Below are positions 9,537 to 63,820 of a stretch of 64,000 nt of DNA, piece by piece. Each line of letters starts with the position of its first letter. Position 1 is the first letter of the stretch. A program made the position numbers and the translations under genes. The notes beneath the pieces were generated by a model. The model was given only the letters and a program-made list of their open reading frames with translations. It was not told where the DNA came from and ran no database searches. The stretch comes from Planctomycetota bacterium (GTDB lineage: Bacteria; Planctomycetota; Phycisphaerae; Phycisphaerales; UBA5793), in contig CAUJHZ010000023.1 in NCBI GenBank assembly GCA_963205185.1, forward strand, positions 31,273 through 95,272, given 5' to 3'.

Positions 9537-10589
9537 TCAGGGCCCGTCGTCGGCCGGGTCGCCGGCGGGCTCTGCCTCTGCCGGTTGGCTGCCCAGTTGC
9601 CTGGCCAGCGCTTCGACTTCGGGCGCCGCTGCATCCAGCCGCTGGGCAAACGCCAGCCAGGAAAGCGCACCGTCGTGATCGCCCGCGAGTTCGAAGAACC
9701 TCGCCGCGGCGACGGCGCTGCTCAGCGATTCAGGCCGGCGGTTCAGATACTCCACGTGCGTCTCGGCCGCCTTGCGCGGCATGAGCAGCATGCCCCAGCA
9801 CTGGCCGATCTCATCGACCACTTCCTGCTGGTAGCGCGCCTGTTCGGGCAGAGCCGAGAGCAGCGTGATCGCCGCTTCGGGTTTGCCGCGGCGGCGGAGG
9901 ATCTTCGCTTCGAGCACCTGCCATGTCGTGAACTGCGGCGCGAGTGTGCGCGCCTTGGCCAGGTGCTGCTCGGCGAGTTCGAGTTTGTTCTCGATGAACG
10001 CGATCTGCGCCAGCCCGCCCCACGCCTCGTGGATGTCCTTGTCGATGTCGATCACGTGCAGCAGTTCCGCCTGCGCCTTGGCGATCTCGTTCGTCTTGCG
10101 ATAGAGGCTGGCGAGATAGAGCGGCGCCTGCACATCCGTCGGCGCCAGCCGCCGCGCCTGCTGAAGATGGATGATCGCCTCGTCGATCCGGTCGAGTCGC
10201 GCCGCGATCAGCCCCGCGTTGAAGCGGATGTCGCGGCTGTCCACGCCGAGGTCGATGACCTTCGTGTAGATGGCGTACGCATCCGCCTGGCGGCCCTGGT
10301 GCAGGCGGACCTCGGCCAGCTGCTGCCAGACCTGCGGCTCATCGGGAAACTCCTTCGCGAGTTTTTCGAGGATCGTCGCCGCTTGCTCGTCGTGCTCGGT
10401 GTTGACGTACTGGGCCGCGGCTTCAAGCCCGGCCTGCAGCGCGGCGAGGCGCTGGGTCGTATTGGCTCCAGCCTGCTGAGGATCGTTGAGCACCGGCCGG
10501 CCGAGCAGCCACACGCCAAGACCCGAGCCCACGAGCAGCGCGACGGCGAGGACGGCGAGGGTGAAGATGGTGCGTCGATCAGAACTCAT
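9537..10589 (-). CDS. Membrane-anchored TPR protein
   Basis: A 350-residue protein with one N-terminal transmembrane segment (about 8-30, LAVLAVALLVGSGLGVWLLG) followed by tandem tetratricopeptide repeats covering about residues 50-330. Typical repeat elements are AWGGLAQIAFIENKLELAEQ and DEPQVWQQLAEVRLHQGR. The C-terminus is acidic and Ala/Pro-rich. TPR arrays bind partner proteins, so this is probably an inner-membrane-tethered scaffold facing the periplasm. It is divergent from valS, whose start lies 53 bases away. No specific partner is suggested. Confidence 0.85.
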   Translation of the reverse strand: MSSDRRTIFTLAVLAVALLVGSGLGVWLLGRPVLNDPQQAGANTTQRLAALQAGLEAAAQYVNTEHDEQAATILEKLAKEFPDEPQVWQQLAEVRLHQGRQADAYAIYTKVIDLGVDSRDIRFNAGLIAARLDRIDEAIIHLQQARRLAPTDVQAPLYLASLYRKTNEIAKAQAELLHVIDIDKDIHEAWGGLAQIAFIENKLELAEQHLAKARTLAPQFTTWQVLEAKILRRRGKPEAAITLLSALPEQARYQQEVVDEIGQCWGMLLMPRKAAETHVEYLNRRPESLSSAVAAARFFELAGDHDGALSWLAFAQRLDAAAPEVEALARQLGSQPAEAEPAGDPADDGP

Positions 10590-10642
10590 GCCAGCCTCTG
10601 ATTCATCGGCCGTTTTCGACCGCTCGGCTACAATCGGCTCTT

Positions 10643-13600
10643 ATGGGCGAATCTACGAGCAACCCGGGCGAACTGGCGAAATCCTATGACCCTGCAGTCG
10701 AAGAGCCCAAGGTTCGCGCCGCGTGGGATGCGGCGCAGCCCTCTCACGCCGAGCCCGCGGCCGATGCCGACGGCCCGCCGCCGTACTGCATCCTCATCCC
10801 GCCGCCCAACGTGACGGCCGCGCTGCACCTCGGCCACGCGCTCAATAACACGCTCCAGGACGTGCTCATCCGCTACCACCGCGCCCAGGGCCGGCCGACG
10901 CTGTGGATGCCCGGCACCGATCACGCCGGCATCGCCACCCAGGCCGTCATCGAAAAGCGCCTCTGGGAAGACCAGGGCAAGCGCCGCAAGGATCTCGATC
11001 CCGATCTCGATAAAGCGCGCGAGAAGTTCGTCGCCATCACTCAGGCGTGGAAGGACGAGTACGAAGCCACCATCATCCAGCAGCTCAAGATGATGGGCTG
11101 CTCGTGCGACTGGGAGCGCACGCGATTCACGATGGATGAGATGTGCGCGCGTGCCGTGCGTGAGGCGTTCTTTCGCCTGTTCAAGGATGGGCTGATCTAT
11201 CGCGGCAAGCGGCTGGTGAACTGGGACCCGGTGCTGCAGACCGCCGTTGCCGATGATGAGTGCTACGACGAGGAGATCGAGGGGCAGTTTTACTACCTGC
11301 GCTATCCGCTGATCCCGATTGACGAGCCGCGCCGGTCAGCAAGCGGGCATTTGCAGACGTACGAAGCCATGACGGGCGAGTCGTTCATCACCGTCGCCAC
11401 CACGCGCCCCGAAACCATGCTCGGCGACACGGGCGTGGCGGTGAACCCGCGAGACCCGCGCGCTGCGGCACTCAAAGGAAGATTCGTCCGACTTCCCCTC
11501 GTGGGACGCGAGATTCCCATCGTCATCGACGACTACGTCGTGCTGCCCGTGTCGATGGGCGGCGATGAGAAGGATCCCAAGGCACAGTTCGCCACCGGCT
11601 TTCTCAAGGTCACTCCCGCGCACGATCCCAACGACTGGGAAATCGGCCAGCGGCACAACCTCGAAGCCGTCAACATCTTCGCGCCCGATGCCTCGGTCTC
11701 CGACAAGCACGGCTGGAACGACGTCGGCGACGCCGGCTTCCTTGTCGGCCTCGACCGCTTCGAAGCGAGAAAGGCGATCGTCGGGCGATTCGAAGAGACG
11801 GGCGTGCTCGCCGAGCGCAAGCCGTATCGCCACAGCGTGTCGCACTCGGATCGCAGCAAAGCGATCATCGAGCCGTATCTGAGCGACCAGTGGTACGTGA
11901 AGGTGACGGATGACCGGATGCGCGGCGACGCGCTGCGCGCGATGACCAAATCACAACGATCATCCGAAGCGAGCCCGAAGCGTGAGCGAGGATTCGAGGA
12001 GCACACATCCACAACGAGCCCGAAGCCTGAGCGAGGATTCCCCACCGATCTCGCCTACCTCATCACCTGGACCTGCAAAGGCACGTGGCTGCACGGCGAT
12101 GAGCGCGGTTCCGTCGATGATGCGCACAACACGCCCGGCGCGCCGCTGGTGCCCGCTGATGAAAACCGCCAGGCAAAGGCCGCCGAGCGATTGACGGATC
12201 ACGCATTTCACATGAACGACGATGCACGCCAGATCATGTGTCGCACGATTGAAGAGGTGTGCGAGCATCGTGGCTGGATGCTGCTGGCTGTGAACGTGCG
12301 TTCAAACCACATTCACACGGTCGTCATCGCCGATGACAAGCCGGAACAGGTGATGAGTTCGTTCAAGGCGTACGGCACGCGCCGCCTTTGCGAGGCTGAC
12401 ATCATTGCTCGCGGCACAAAGCCTTGGACCGAGCACGGAAGCACGCGGTACGTCAAAGGCGAACCGTCTATTCTGGCAGCGTGTCAGTACGTGTTGCATG
12501 AACAAGGTGATAACCTCGCTGGTGCAGTGGGCGGAAGACTGCTCGGGCGAAGCCCGAGTGATGTCCTCGCTCACGCTTCGGGCTCGCTTCGGACGCCTTC
12601 CTGGCAAGGCCAACTTCACTTCCATCCCGACCGCTACGCGAAGACGTTTGAGAACTGGCACGAGAACATCCGCGACTGGTGCATCTCAAGGCAGTTGTGG
12701 TGGGGGCACCGGATCCCGGTTTGGGGCGGTTGTGGATTGAGTGCGGTGGCTCGTGAGTACGCGCCTGGAGAGGATCGGACAGCCGAGTTTGCGCTAATCG
12801 AGCGTTGGGAACGCGAGGGCCGCATCGCTGTCCATCGTGCTGATGTCACCGAGATTTATGGTGATGGAGAAGCGGAGCTGAACGATCGGTCACTCCATTA
12901 CTTTGTTTGTGTGCGTAATGCGGAAGCCGATGAAGAGGTTGTCGCACAACTCGAGCGTTGGGGCCTTAAACGCGACCCCGACGTCCTCGACACCTGGTTC
13001 TCCTCCGCGCTCTGGCCGCTTTCAACCATGGGCTGGCCCGACCCTGAGAGTTACGAGGAAACGCGCAGCAACGACGGCCAGCCCAACCTCCTCGATTACT
13101 TCAACCCCACCAGCGTCCTGTGCACGGCGCGCGAGATCATCACCCTCTGGGTCTCGCGCATGGTCATGTTCAATCTCTACTTCACGCAGGACACCGACAA
13201 GGGGCAGCGCCTGCCCTTCCGCGATGTGTTCATCCACGCGATGATCCAGGATGGGCAAGGCCGCAAGATGAGCAAGTCGCTGGGCAACGGCGTCGATCCG
13301 CGCGACATCATCCGCAGTAAGGGCGCCGACGCCATGCGCTTCACCCTCGTGCAGATGACCACGCAGACGCAGGATGTCCGCATGCCCGTCGAGTACGACG
13401 AGACCATCGGCGCCAACACGAGCCCGAAGTTCGAACTCGGCCGGCGTTTGTCCAACAAGATCTGGAATGCGACGCGCTTCGCGATCGGTATTCTCAGCTC
13501 ACCCGCCGATGCCTCCACTTCATCTGCTGAGCCGACCCGCCTCGTTGACCGCTGGATGCTCTCGCGTCTGGCCCGCACACTTGGCGAAGTTGAAAAGTCG

Positions 13601-14380
13601 ATCCACGATTACGACTTCAGCGTCTATGCCCAGCAGATGTACGACCTGTTCTGGCGCGACCTGTGCGACTGGTATCTCGAGGCGATCAAGCCCACGGTCC
13701 GCGAGGATGCGATCCAGCAGTGCGTGCTGCGGTCGGCCCTGGGCGCGGTGCACCGCATGTTCCACCCCATCATGCCGTTCGTGACTGAGTCGCTGCACGC
13801 GTCGATCGAGAGCCTGCCCGTCGAGCCGCTCAACGACGTCGAACTGCGGCCGAGCGATCTGGCGGCGACGGCGCCGTGGCCATGCGTGCCGTTGCTTTAT
13901 GTCGATGATTCTGTGGAAGCCCGGTTCGCGCGCGTGCAGGAACTGGTCACGATCATTCGCGAAGTGCGCAGCGTCCAGAAGGTGCACGACCGCCGGCAGA
14001 TCACGCTGCACGTCAGCGATGACGCGACGATGGACCTGATCGCACAGGCGGAGGGCGTCGTCGAGGCCCTCGCGGGCCTGGGCAGGGTCAGTCGCGACGC
14101 TGCAGGCGCCGGCGGGGGCGTGACGTTCCTGTTTGGCAACGTCGAGCATCACCTGACCGACCTGACCGACGCCATCGACATCTCCGCCGAGCGCGACCGC
14201 CTGACGCGGCAGAAGGCCGATCTTGAGAAAAAGATCAATGGGCTTCAGGGCCGGCTCGCCAATAAGGGCTACATCGAAAAGGCCCCGCCAAAACTCGTCG
14301 AGGAGACAAAGCAGCAATTGTCTGAAGCGCAGGCCGAGTTGGACAGTATCATCCAGTCGCTGGAGCGGCTTGGCTCCTGA
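10643..14380 (+). CDS. valS: Valyl-tRNA synthetase containing an in-frame transposase insert
   Basis: Class I synthetase that charges tRNA-Val with valine and edits threonyl mistakes. The HIGH-type motif LHLGH lies near residue 62, KMSKS near residue 875 in GRKMSKSLGN, and the C-terminal tRNA-binding coiled coil at about 1180-1240. The protein is 1245 residues, about 200-300 longer than usual for ValS. The excess is a segment at about residues 441-650 that is not synthetase: it is a HUH-type transposase domain bounded by inverted repeats (see the mobile element entry). Synthetase sequence stops after SDQWYVKVTDDRMRGDAL and resumes at FHPDRYAKTFENWHENIRDW, in frame. All other signature regions look intact, so the enzyme may be active. 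It is the only valS in the window. Confidence 0.95.
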   Translation: MGESTSNPGELAKSYDPAVEEPKVRAAWDAAQPSHAEPAADADGPPPYCILIPPPNVTAALHLGHALNNTLQDVLIRYHRAQGRPTLWMPGTDHAGIATQAVIEKRLWEDQGKRRKDLDPDLDKAREKFVAITQAWKDEYEATIIQQLKMMGCSCDWERTRFTMDEMCARAVREAFFRLFKDGLIYRGKRLVNWDPVLQTAVADDECYDEEIEGQFYYLRYPLIPIDEPRRSASGHLQTYEAMTGESFITVATTRPETMLGDTGVAVNPRDPRAAALKGRFVRLPLVGREIPIVIDDYVVLPVSMGGDEKDPKAQFATGFLKVTPAHDPNDWEIGQRHNLEAVNIFAPDASVSDKHGWNDVGDAGFLVGLDRFEARKAIVGRFEETGVLAERKPYRHSVSHSDRSKAIIEPYLSDQWYVKVTDDRMRGDALRAMTKSQRSSEASPKRERGFEEHTSTTSPKPERGFPTDLAYLITWTCKGTWLHGDERGSVDDAHNTPGAPLVPADENRQAKAAERLTDHAFHMNDDARQIMCRTIEEVCEHRGWMLLAVNVRSNHIHTVVIADDKPEQVMSSFKAYGTRRLCEADIIARGTKPWTEHGSTRYVKGEPSILAACQYVLHEQGDNLAGAVGGRLLGRSPSDVLAHASGSLRTPSWQGQLHFHPDRYAKTFENWHENIRDWCISRQLWWGHRIPVWGGCGLSAVAREYAPGEDRTAEFALIERWEREGRIAVHRADVTEIYGDGEAELNDRSLHYFVCVRNAEADEEVVAQLERWGLKRDPDVLDTWFSSALWPLSTMGWPDPESYEETRSNDGQPNLLDYFNPTSVLCTAREIITLWVSRMVMFNLYFTQDTDKGQRLPFRDVFIHAMIQDGQGRKMSKSLGNGVDPRDIIRSKGADAMRFTLVQMTTQTQDVRMPVEYDETIGANTSPKFELGRRLSNKIWNATRFAIGILSSPADASTSSAEPTRLVDRWMLSRLARTLGEVEKSIHDYDFSVYAQQMYDLFWRDLCDWYLEAIKPTVREDAIQQCVLRSALGAVHRMFHPIMPFVTESLHASIESLPVEPLNDVELRPSDLAATAPWPCVPLLYVDDSVEARFARVQELVTIIREVRSVQKVHDRRQITLHVSDDATMDLIAQAEGVVEALAGLGRVSRDAAGAGGGVTFLFGNVEHHLTDLTDAIDISAERDRLTRQKADLEKKINGLQGRLANKGYIEKAPPKLVEETKQQLSEAQAELDSIIQSLERLGS
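11963..11992 (+). repeat. REP copy, left end of the valS insert
   Basis: Thirty-base repeat running from TCCGAAGC to GCGAGGA. It is identical, as a reverse complement, to 12564-12593. In the valS frame it encodes part of SSEASPKRERGF. The 23-base core starts at 11970. Confidence 0.9.
12015..12037 (+). repeat. REP copy, internal direct repeat in the valS insert
   Basis: A 23-base direct copy of the left-end core with a single mismatch (at 12027), starting 45 bases downstream of the first core. The period of 15 codons keeps the frame and gives the peptide repeat ASPKRERGF / TSPKPERGF. Confidence 0.88.
12542..12558. repeat. Hairpin near the right end of the valS insert
   Basis: Perfect inverted repeat with 7-bp arms (CTCGGGC and GCCCGAG) around a 3-base loop. 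It lies just before the right-end REP copy, at the end of the transposase domain. Such hairpins are the structures recognised by HUH transposases in related systems; a role here is inference. Confidence 0.65.
12564..12593 (-). repeat. REP copy, right end of the valS insert (inverted)
   Basis: Exact reverse complement of 11963-11992 over 30 bases. With the left copy it defines the boundaries of the insert. Synthetase sequence resumes within about 20 codons downstream. Confidence 0.9.
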
Positions 14381-14393
14381 TCGGGGATCGGGC

Positions 14394-15464
14394 ATGGCAT
14401 TGGAATGGAATCGGTATCGAGGGCTCGCGCTGGGCGTCGCGCTGCTGAGCGCTGCCGTCGCCGGCGGCTGCACGAGCGGCCAGGCGGCGCGGCCCACGGT
14501 CCTCGCCTCGGCCGGCGAAGAAGACACCGGCGTGGAGACATGGGAGTTCGCCGGGATTCCGGGCACAATCACCCGCACGCCCAACTACCGCATCCACACC
14601 ACCGCCGAGAGCAACGAGATGGCGCTGCGATTTCCCGACTTCGTCGAAGCGGCGCTGCAGCACTACCGCACCGTCATCGTCGAACTTCCTGCCCCGGAAC
14701 GCCGGCTCGATTCATTCGTTTTCGCAAATCGCCAGCAATGGATCGCCTTCACCGAGCAACTCATGGGCGATCGATCCTCGCAATACGAGCAGATCCGCCG
14801 AGGCGGCTACTCGACGGGCGGGCGGGCGGTGTTCTGGGACATCGGCCTGTTCGACACCATGGCCATCGCCGCCCACGAGGGCTGGCACCAGTACACCCAG
14901 CGCACTTTTAAAGACTCGCTGCCGGTCTGGCTCGAGGAGGGTCTGGGCACGTTCATGGAGGGGCACCGCTGGCGCGGCCGTACGCCCGAATTCCTGCCAT
15001 GGTCGAATCCCGAGAGGTTCGACCAGTTGCGCCGGGCGTACTACCGCGATCAATTGACCCCACTGAGCGAACTGCTCAAGTCCCGGCCCGAGGACATGCT
15101 CGGCGGCCGCAACACCGACGTGCTCAACTATTACTCGCAGGTCTGGGCCCTCGTGCATTTCCTCAACGAAGGCGAGAAGGGCAAGTACAACGAACGGCTG
15201 CAGACGATGCTGCTCGACGCCAGCCGTGGCCAGGTCCGCCAGCGCGTGAGCGCCACCGTGCGAAAGCGCGCCAGGGCGGGCGAGCACGGCGTGAGCGAAG
15301 ACGGCAGCACGGCGCTCTTTGACGTCTACTTCAACGACGACCTCGCCGCCGCTGACCGCGAGTACCGCTCGTTTGTCGGCATGATCGTCGCCTCGGGCGC
15401 CCGCCAGCGGATGCTCCAGGGTCGCAGCCCGATCACCTCATCCGTCCGAAGCGACGGCCGATGA
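14394..15464 (+). CDS. DUF1570-like lipoprotein with HExxH metalloprotease motif
   Basis: A 356-residue predicted lipoprotein. The leader ends in the lipobox AGGC (Cys26). A gluzincin-like motif HEGWHQ (His161) lies in AIAAHEGWHQYTQRTF and is followed by LPVWLEEGLGTFMEG, whose Glu could be the third zinc ligand. This arrangement matches the DUF1570/peptidase MA-like proteins frequent in planctomycetes. A surface or periplasmic peptidase role is likely but unproven. The ATG is 13 bases after the valS stop, and the 3' end overlaps the phosphodiesterase start by 4 bases (ATGA), so it probably belongs to one transcript with its neighbours. Confidence 0.82.
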   Translation: MALEWNRYRGLALGVALLSAAVAGGCTSGQAARPTVLASAGEEDTGVETWEFAGIPGTITRTPNYRIHTTAESNEMALRFPDFVEAALQHYRTVIVELPAPERRLDSFVFANRQQWIAFTEQLMGDRSSQYEQIRRGGYSTGGRAVFWDIGLFDTMAIAAHEGWHQYTQRTFKDSLPVWLEEGLGTFMEGHRWRGRTPEFLPWSNPERFDQLRRAYYRDQLTPLSELLKSRPEDMLGGRNTDVLNYYSQVWALVHFLNEGEKGKYNERLQTMLLDASRGQVRQRVSATVRKRARAGEHGVSEDGSTALFDVYFNDDLAAADREYRSFVGMIVASGARQRMLQGRSPITSSVRSDGR

Positions 15465-63720: not shown

Positions 63721-63763
63721 CCGAGCGAGTTCCGGGATGCGACACCACCACACGCCGGTCAAC

Positions 63764-63820
63764 CGAGCCCGAAGCGCAAGCAAGGAATTGCATTAACGAG
63801 CCGCACGCGTCAGCACGCGG
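63764..63820. repeat. REP-like interspersed repeat at the right edge
   Basis: A 23-base copy (63764-63786) of the REP core seen in the valS insert, with three mismatches, followed after 10 bases by a second unit (63797-63820) starting CGAGCCGC. Both read in the same direction as the left-end core in valS. The arrangement resembles intergenic repeats I know from planctomycete genomes. Confidence 0.75.

Follow-up and report, generated by a model that had tools for sequence, protein, structure and literature searches.

An in-frame, REP-flanked RAYT transposase domain in the only valS found in a Planctomycetota genome

How can a gene that the cell cannot lose keep a transposase in its middle? The question is raised by valS, the gene of valyl-tRNA synthetase (ValRS), in a Planctomycetota genome of which we analyzed a stretch of 64,000 nt (contig CAUJHZ010000023.1; hereafter “the window”). 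The valS gene is essential for the cell. In the window it is an open reading frame (ORF) of 1245 codons (10643–14380, + strand), recognized in the ORF list and by Pfam and NCBIfam, with no internal stop codons. Inserted in this frame is a domain of the REP-associated tyrosine transposases (RAYTs), flanked by repetitive extragenic palindromic (REP) sequences. The transposase thus sits in the sole valS that the genome was found to have, and is predicted to be an internal domain of a working ValRS. We consider it probable that it is a non-splicing, homing-like passenger, likely using essential genes as a refuge and a promoter.

On the valS product, Pfam matched tRNA-synt_1 in two stretches, Anticodon_1, Val_tRNA-synt_C and, between the two stretches of the class I synthetase core, Y1_Tnp (residues 524–590). 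The NCBIfam valS equivalog also matched in two stretches, scoring 933.9 bits where the cutoff is 704. The HIGH-type motif of ValRS was HLGHA (residues 62–66; 10826–10840, + strand), and the KMSKS motif was found at residues 875–879 (13265–13279, + strand). By alignment, the insert maps between residues 363 and 376 of Thermus ValRS (1gax), after the editing domain, in the loop linking this domain back to the catalytic core.

The RAYT (Y1 HUH transposase) domain proper covers residues 469–628 (12047–12526, + strand). It has the HUH motif His-Ile-His (residues 556–558; 12308–12316, + strand) and a candidate catalytic Tyr616 within YVLHEQ (12488–12490, + strand). The initial annotation had placed a RAYT/IS200-like HUH domain with this HIH and this tyrosine inside the 1245-codon open frame, and both the domain and the motif positions held. 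The REP boundaries were absent from it. A left REP, or terminal repeat, of 30 nt (11963–11992, + strand), with a CCGA foot and read in frame as SEASPKRERG, is 100% complementary (30/30 nt) to its inverted copy, the right REP (12564–12593, − strand). This perfect inverted pair bounds a cassette at 11963–12593. A second left REP (12008–12037, + strand) is 87% complementary to the right arm, and an extra palindrome, CTCGGGCGAAGCCCGAG (12542–12558, strand undefined), adjoins the right REP. The REP motif, allowing up to two mismatches, had 17 copies in the genome, three of them in the valS cassette, and the reversed control none. A copy with two mismatches lies near the end of the window (63762–63785; G000:C23:95034).

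A sequence-only search of the PDB with the RAYT domain gave no worthwhile match, and therefore the domain was folded by prediction. The AlphaFold2 model of 12038–12565 (predicted local distance difference test, pLDDT, 85.8) had the fold of IS200/IS605 and TnpA_REP proteins. HUH motif and catalytic tyrosine, IS200/TnpA_REP fold and inverted flanking REP pair were all present. The feature of a free gene was missing: the domain is without its own start and stop and is read through. The domain is homologous to the RAYT family, in an arrangement that is not usual for it.

The host genome (4.55 Mb, 97.4% complete) yielded no second valS. Its remaining matches to the fusion were two free RAYTs and a class I synthetase paralogue (locus C74, 27–28% identity). 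The gene lies mid-contig (C23, 41915–45649 of 95272), away from the edges. The lack of a second valS, first noted for the window, thus extended to the genome, and the suggestion that the insert is tolerated was supported by the single-copy valS and the open frames. Twelve genomes whose ValS holds a RAYT were tested, and 11 of them had a single ValS locus (E up to 1e-30).

The fusion matched in all 41 genomes searched, the window’s own and 40 relatives. The loop was readable in 37, own included; G002 (split contigs), G009, G021 (fragment) and G038 were left out. In this DNA-level survey, 8 of the 37 had a RAYT in the ValS loop, and all eight loops were stop-free as far as the contigs reach. The RAYTs belonged to two distinct classes: class A in the window, G004, G013, G032 and G037, and class B in G001, G005 and G031. 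Within the window’s genus alone the loop held the window’s class A, class B (G001), another class A (G004) or no RAYT (G003). The RAYT-free loop of G003 had, by eye, an apparent interrupted REP at the same place. The valS of G018 (L070) had a different insert of ~70 residues in this loop, in which no RAYT was seen.

Class A resembles class 3 of TnpA_Y1, for which the excerpted text of PMC6006769 gives NH.H, Y----Q and a CnGA foot. Compared by eye, the window has NHIH, YVLHEQ and CCGA, the latter in TCCGAAGCG. In the same scheme, as excerpted, class B would be class 2-like (PMC6006769).

The arrangement recurred in hundreds of proteins, which the initial annotation had not foreseen. Long-protein RAYT searches of 5.8 billion proteins gave 22, 434 (120 listed) and 23 matches, queries and overlaps included. 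ValS-like fusions were 110 of the 162 proteins retrieved, with the RAYT in the main loop in 109 (loose window). Of 315 RAYT domains classified, in a set that is not random since the protein searches could return long proteins only, 269 had a host, under 20 host labels: ValS (140), DUF1156 (30), PurH (18), AlaS (16), IleS (15), LeuS (13), DinG (8) and others, among them GcvP, Ham1 and restriction enzymes. The record of Phycisphaerae bacterium RAS1 (G107, matched by ValS P0010) had RAYTs in ValS (at a third site), IleS, PurH and GcvP. A methionine in the 20 residues ahead of the domain was present in 24/216 internal vs. 27/40 free RAYTs, GTG and TTG starts left out.

To survey the class, 298 of its genomes were searched with one class-A and one class-B RAYT query. 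Matches to the class-B query, which extends to a longer and more distant RAYT type, numbered 105. A host gene contained the RAYT in frame in 75 of these (C-terminally in ThiE in four cases, and with some truncated at contig ends), 29 were alone and one was unclear (L282, at a contig end). The 25 best-scoring were all inside or fused to genes. Ten free class-B RAYTs with long N-terminal parts showed no host family above cutoff when scanned. L217, with a Pol-beta match just below cutoff, and L222, where the RAYT is followed in frame by a weak DUF1156-type match, were counted as alone, and the number of 29 may be slightly high. Around 42 loci taken as free, no antisense or broken host pieces were found except in L218 and L219, which are contig-cut ValS; we read the other matches near these loci as coming from the RAYT’s own N-terminal part in unmasked references, plus L222. 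Of the 140 matches to the class-A query, at least 28 were embedded in frame; at most 44 of the 140 were examined, long open frames first, and the remainder was judged by frame length alone.

Beyond the class, one genome per species was scanned and 80 loci were listed. Among these, hosted long ORFs were found in Planctomycetota and Verrucomicrobiota, the latter with AlaS (at least six loci), RecG (at least five), PriA (at least two), MetH and ThrS as hosts. MAGs named Prosthecobacter debontii (L372, L341) carried an insert in AlaS or RecG. DUF1156 or restriction-enzyme hosts were in metagenome-assembled genomes (MAGs) labelled Deltaproteobacteria or “bacterium” (L298, L328, L338, L342), and the listed loci from Cyanobacteria, Acidobacteria and Chloroflexi had ORFs of ~150–330 residues.

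Some hosts had peculiarities of their own. Single synthetases with two RAYTs at two sites were P0002, L261 (AlaS) and P0024 (IleS). A RAYT fused C-terminally to a ThiD2-ThiE protein was found in four genomes (L150, L151, L160, L161), all from one RAYT clade. Restriction-modification enzymes (PglX/Eco57I, MmeI, Type ISP) were recurrent hosts (P0016–P0019, P0154, L146, L177, L275–L277, L281).

The insertion sites were few per host. The main loop of ValS took 120 of its 140 inserts (96 of class B and 24 of class A). A second site, directly before TVATTRPETML, had 13, a third had three, and four were at single sites. PurH had 17/18 at one site (5 class A, 12 class B) and DinG 7/8. Sites were shared by 8 and 7 of 15 inserts in IleS, by 7, 3, 2 and 1 in LeuS, by 12, 3 and 1 in AlaS, and by 14, 10 and 3 in DUF1156, plus three singles. 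Class A and class B occupy common loops in ValS and in PurH; the site is therefore set by the host gene and not by one founding insertion. The RAYT type at the second ValS site (L165–L178 except L169, L170, L172 and L177; f9, f15, f23 and others) has an extra N-terminal part; this insert is possibly older and fixed.

Inverted REP-like flanks were called at a score of ≥16, and ten shuffles of each of the embedded RAYTs listed scored at most 14. Pairs were found in IleS (7/7), LeuS (6/7), PurH (8/11), Ham1 (3/3), GcvP (2/2) and ValS (10/21, comprising 10/10 at the main loop and 0/11 elsewhere).

The catalytic residues were nearly invariant. In class B, HxH was kept in 210/210 and the tyrosine in 208/210 domains of the listed groups (215 in all). 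The 58 class-A domains kept the first histidine in 57, the second in 58 and the tyrosine in 51; six PglX copies were read as having an extra insert ahead of the tyrosine (reading of P0017–P0019). In pairs of RAYTs embedded in the same host, third codon positions differed most. Unsaturated pairs had a ratio of non-synonymous to synonymous substitutions (dN/dS) of 0.09–0.33, much like free RAYTs (0.09–0.51); many pairs were saturated and were given no ratio.

A RAYT tree (264 domains, FastTree, few columns) required 41 host-label changes vs. 130.4 in shuffles, with none of 200 shuffles as low. IleS (14), PglX (6) and ThiE (4) formed single groups with support of 97–98, and for ValS at least five changes were forced by strongly supported branches. 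Identities of ValS and RAYT were compared in 86 class-B proteins. The closest ValS relative was also the closest RAYT relative in 17 of them. Of 34 ValS pairs with ≥80% identity, 22 had RAYTs below 65%, and only five had the last 150 residues of ValS below 65%. An example is P0140/P0104, with 93% for ValS vs. 59% for the RAYT. The RAYTs, which cluster by host and turn over between near-identical ValS, thus form gene-specific lineages that are nevertheless replaced at their site. The traits of homing elements, namely fixed sites, patchy occurrence and gene-specific lineages, were present.

How such a passenger may live can be outlined. One fused polypeptide would be translated and would charge tRNA-Val. 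The RAYT domain would remain an active single-strand nuclease on its REPs, an activity that, according to the excerpt of PMC8266576, was shown in vitro for other TnpA_REP. Spread to new alleles would proceed by cutting or pairing at loop REPs, followed by recombination via the conserved host flanks. Out-of-frame or stop-bearing insertions would die with their host, leaving stop-free, in-frame cassettes; an insertion of this kind is what a host needing the gene would leave alive. The embedded transposases thus likely hide in genes that the cell cannot lose. As a broader proposal, which we advance tentatively and rate somewhat below an even chance, there may be a class of non-splicing homing genes, RAYT lineages settled in loops of ValRS, IleRS, LeuRS, AlaRS and PurH as a permanent domain of the enzyme. 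Their HUH nuclease would cut REP scars in RAYT-free alleles and repair would copy the element in, with host essentiality and reading frame protecting it.

Several observations weigh against a homing-like passenger in a working ValRS. The whole-protein AlphaFold model was mediocre (mean pLDDT 67.7, both linkers below 50). It recovered the synthetase folds with no firm domain orientation, and therefore allows no inference on active-site blocking. Two ValS records (P0003, P0012) end early, within or after the RAYT, and are read as frameshifted. The exception among the 12 genomes tested for a single ValS locus was G037, a fragmented MAG with a second, RAYT-free valS piece. Its contigs C460, C84 and C558 hold RAYT-bearing and RAYT-free pieces, from mixed strains or two copies. 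Free RAYTs also carried inverted REP-like pairs (17/39), and such pairs are therefore not special to embedded copies. REP pairs were not seen in the 11 ValS inserts outside the main loop and in four of five DUF1156 inserts, a negative that is weak for the longer RAYT type, which exceeds the domain model and whose tested left flank may lie inside the RAYT. The low dN/dS of embedded RAYTs may partly predate insertion, and both close relatives and the way of collecting the set may have exaggerated the grouping by host in the tree. Identities of RAYT and ValS were weakly correlated (Spearman 0.27; Mantel 0/500), and the near flanks co-varied with RAYT identity (partial 0.288; 0/300), so part of the pattern is vertical or ordinary recombination; the co-variation fits recombination with or without a nuclease. 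Turnover is clear, but a marked horizontal signal, with RAYT identity exceeding ValS identity by ≥0.10, was present in just 11 of 3655 pairs.

These points bear on the explanations that compete with a homing-like passenger. One, which we regard as somewhat unlikely, is ordinary recombination without homing: REPtrons, i.e., RAYTs with their REPs, would land at random, survive in tolerant loops and be swapped with the loop via conserved ValS flanks, the nuclease having no role in spread. Tolerant loops would be expected to be shared by distinct RAYT classes, as they are, and the near-flank co-variation agrees with swapping. A dead passenger, on the other hand, would not keep the near-invariant HxH and tyrosine and the low dN/dS inside hosts, and the 25 closest class-B relatives in the 298 genomes, all inside or fused to genes, also argue against this explanation. 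The initial annotation had offered a domesticated DNA-processing domain as one option; the RAYT would then have a host function in ValRS and other enzymes, such as nucleic-acid binding or regulation. Purifying selection would suit it, as would the second ValS site (f9/f15/f23), where no REP pair was seen and the inserts could be fixed. We nevertheless hold it to be improbable, since the insert is patchy even within the genus and shows turnover among near-identical ValS, since RAYTs of two classes occur at one site, and since the hosts are unrelated, restriction enzymes included.

The many MAGs among the source genomes, the two valS versions of G037 and the early ends of P0003 and P0012 could be taken for an assembly or binning artefact, or for a pseudogene beside a true valS elsewhere. 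This explanation is very unlikely and already largely refuted: the window’s gene is mid-contig and the sole valS found, embedded RAYTs also occur in single-contig genomes (G032, G270) and in the named RAS1 record, and the complete copies read have an ORF that is open from end to end. Splicing, by an intein or an IStron-like self-splicing intron leaving an intact ValRS, has in its favor the mobile-element content inserted in a conserved essential gene, and is the least credible of all. No Hint or intein family was among the Pfam matches of the valS product, Rfam gave no match at E up to 1 over 10400–14600, and with it no intron RNA of a group I/II intron or IStron, and an open frame across the two REPs is nothing that a spliced intron would require. 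The earlier comparison with an intein-like passenger devoid of splicing motifs is therefore apt as an analogy, and of the options first listed, the evidence favors the third, survival within essential genes as a REP/RAYT strategy.

Inteins with homing endonucleases place a nuclease domain in conserved essential genes, at fixed sites, with patchy occurrence and gene-specific lineages. The embedded RAYTs are alike in all of these. Unlike inteins, the valS insert is without a splicing domain and is predicted to remain part of the mature protein, and unlike homing endonucleases of the LAGLIDADG type, RAYTs belong to the HUH single-strand nucleases. IStrons combine an intron with an IS605 element, and thus also bring an IS200/IS605-type element into genes; here there is no intron RNA and the coding frame is used instead. 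With RAYT/TnpA_REP genes and REPtrons (Y1 HUH) the cassette shares the HUH motif, the tyrosine, the IS200-type fold and REP pairs beside the gene. It differs from free RAYT genes in having no methionine near the domain start and no stop of its own, being read as a domain of an essential enzyme, and in that it recurs, REPs included, at homologous positions across many genomes. According to the excerpt of PMC6006769, REPtrons do not appear to move as a unit, and RAYTs, by work cited there, are mostly inherited vertically below the genus level, with transfer and loss inferred at larger scale. In intragenic REPs and Rickettsia palindromic elements, palindromic mobile DNA is likewise read in frame in protein genes, tRNA synthetases included (PMC3733652, in excerpt). 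The REP-encoded stretches there have 20–30, at most 43–82, amino acids, and the excerpted text mentions no transposase gene inside a host gene.

In the literature searched (open-licence papers, most judged by their listing) we found no description of a RAYT in frame inside essential genes. The initial annotation had known of no described case, which stands for the literature searched, while the arrangement itself proved recurrent in ValS, IleS, LeuS, AlaS, PurH and others. RAYTs, REPtrons and intragenic REPs are known; the in-frame RAYT within essential genes is, as far as this literature goes, new as an arrangement. Databases do contain automatic names of the type “alanyl-tRNA synthetase/REP element-mobilizing transposase RayT”. 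According to the excerpt of PMC6006769, a census of the family dropped “a few unexpectedly long proteins”, taking them for fused genes or faulty annotations; such a filter would hide cases like these.

The embedded RAYTs are therefore relevant for annotation. They point to a new habitat and lifestyle of a transposase, in the coding frame of indispensable genes and without splicing. This bears on how RAYTs persist as single-copy genes, on how REPs enter coding regions and on how domains are inserted into proteins. Because embedded RAYTs turn over at fixed sites, the view of RAYTs as stable, mostly vertically inherited genes becomes an idea that can be tested.

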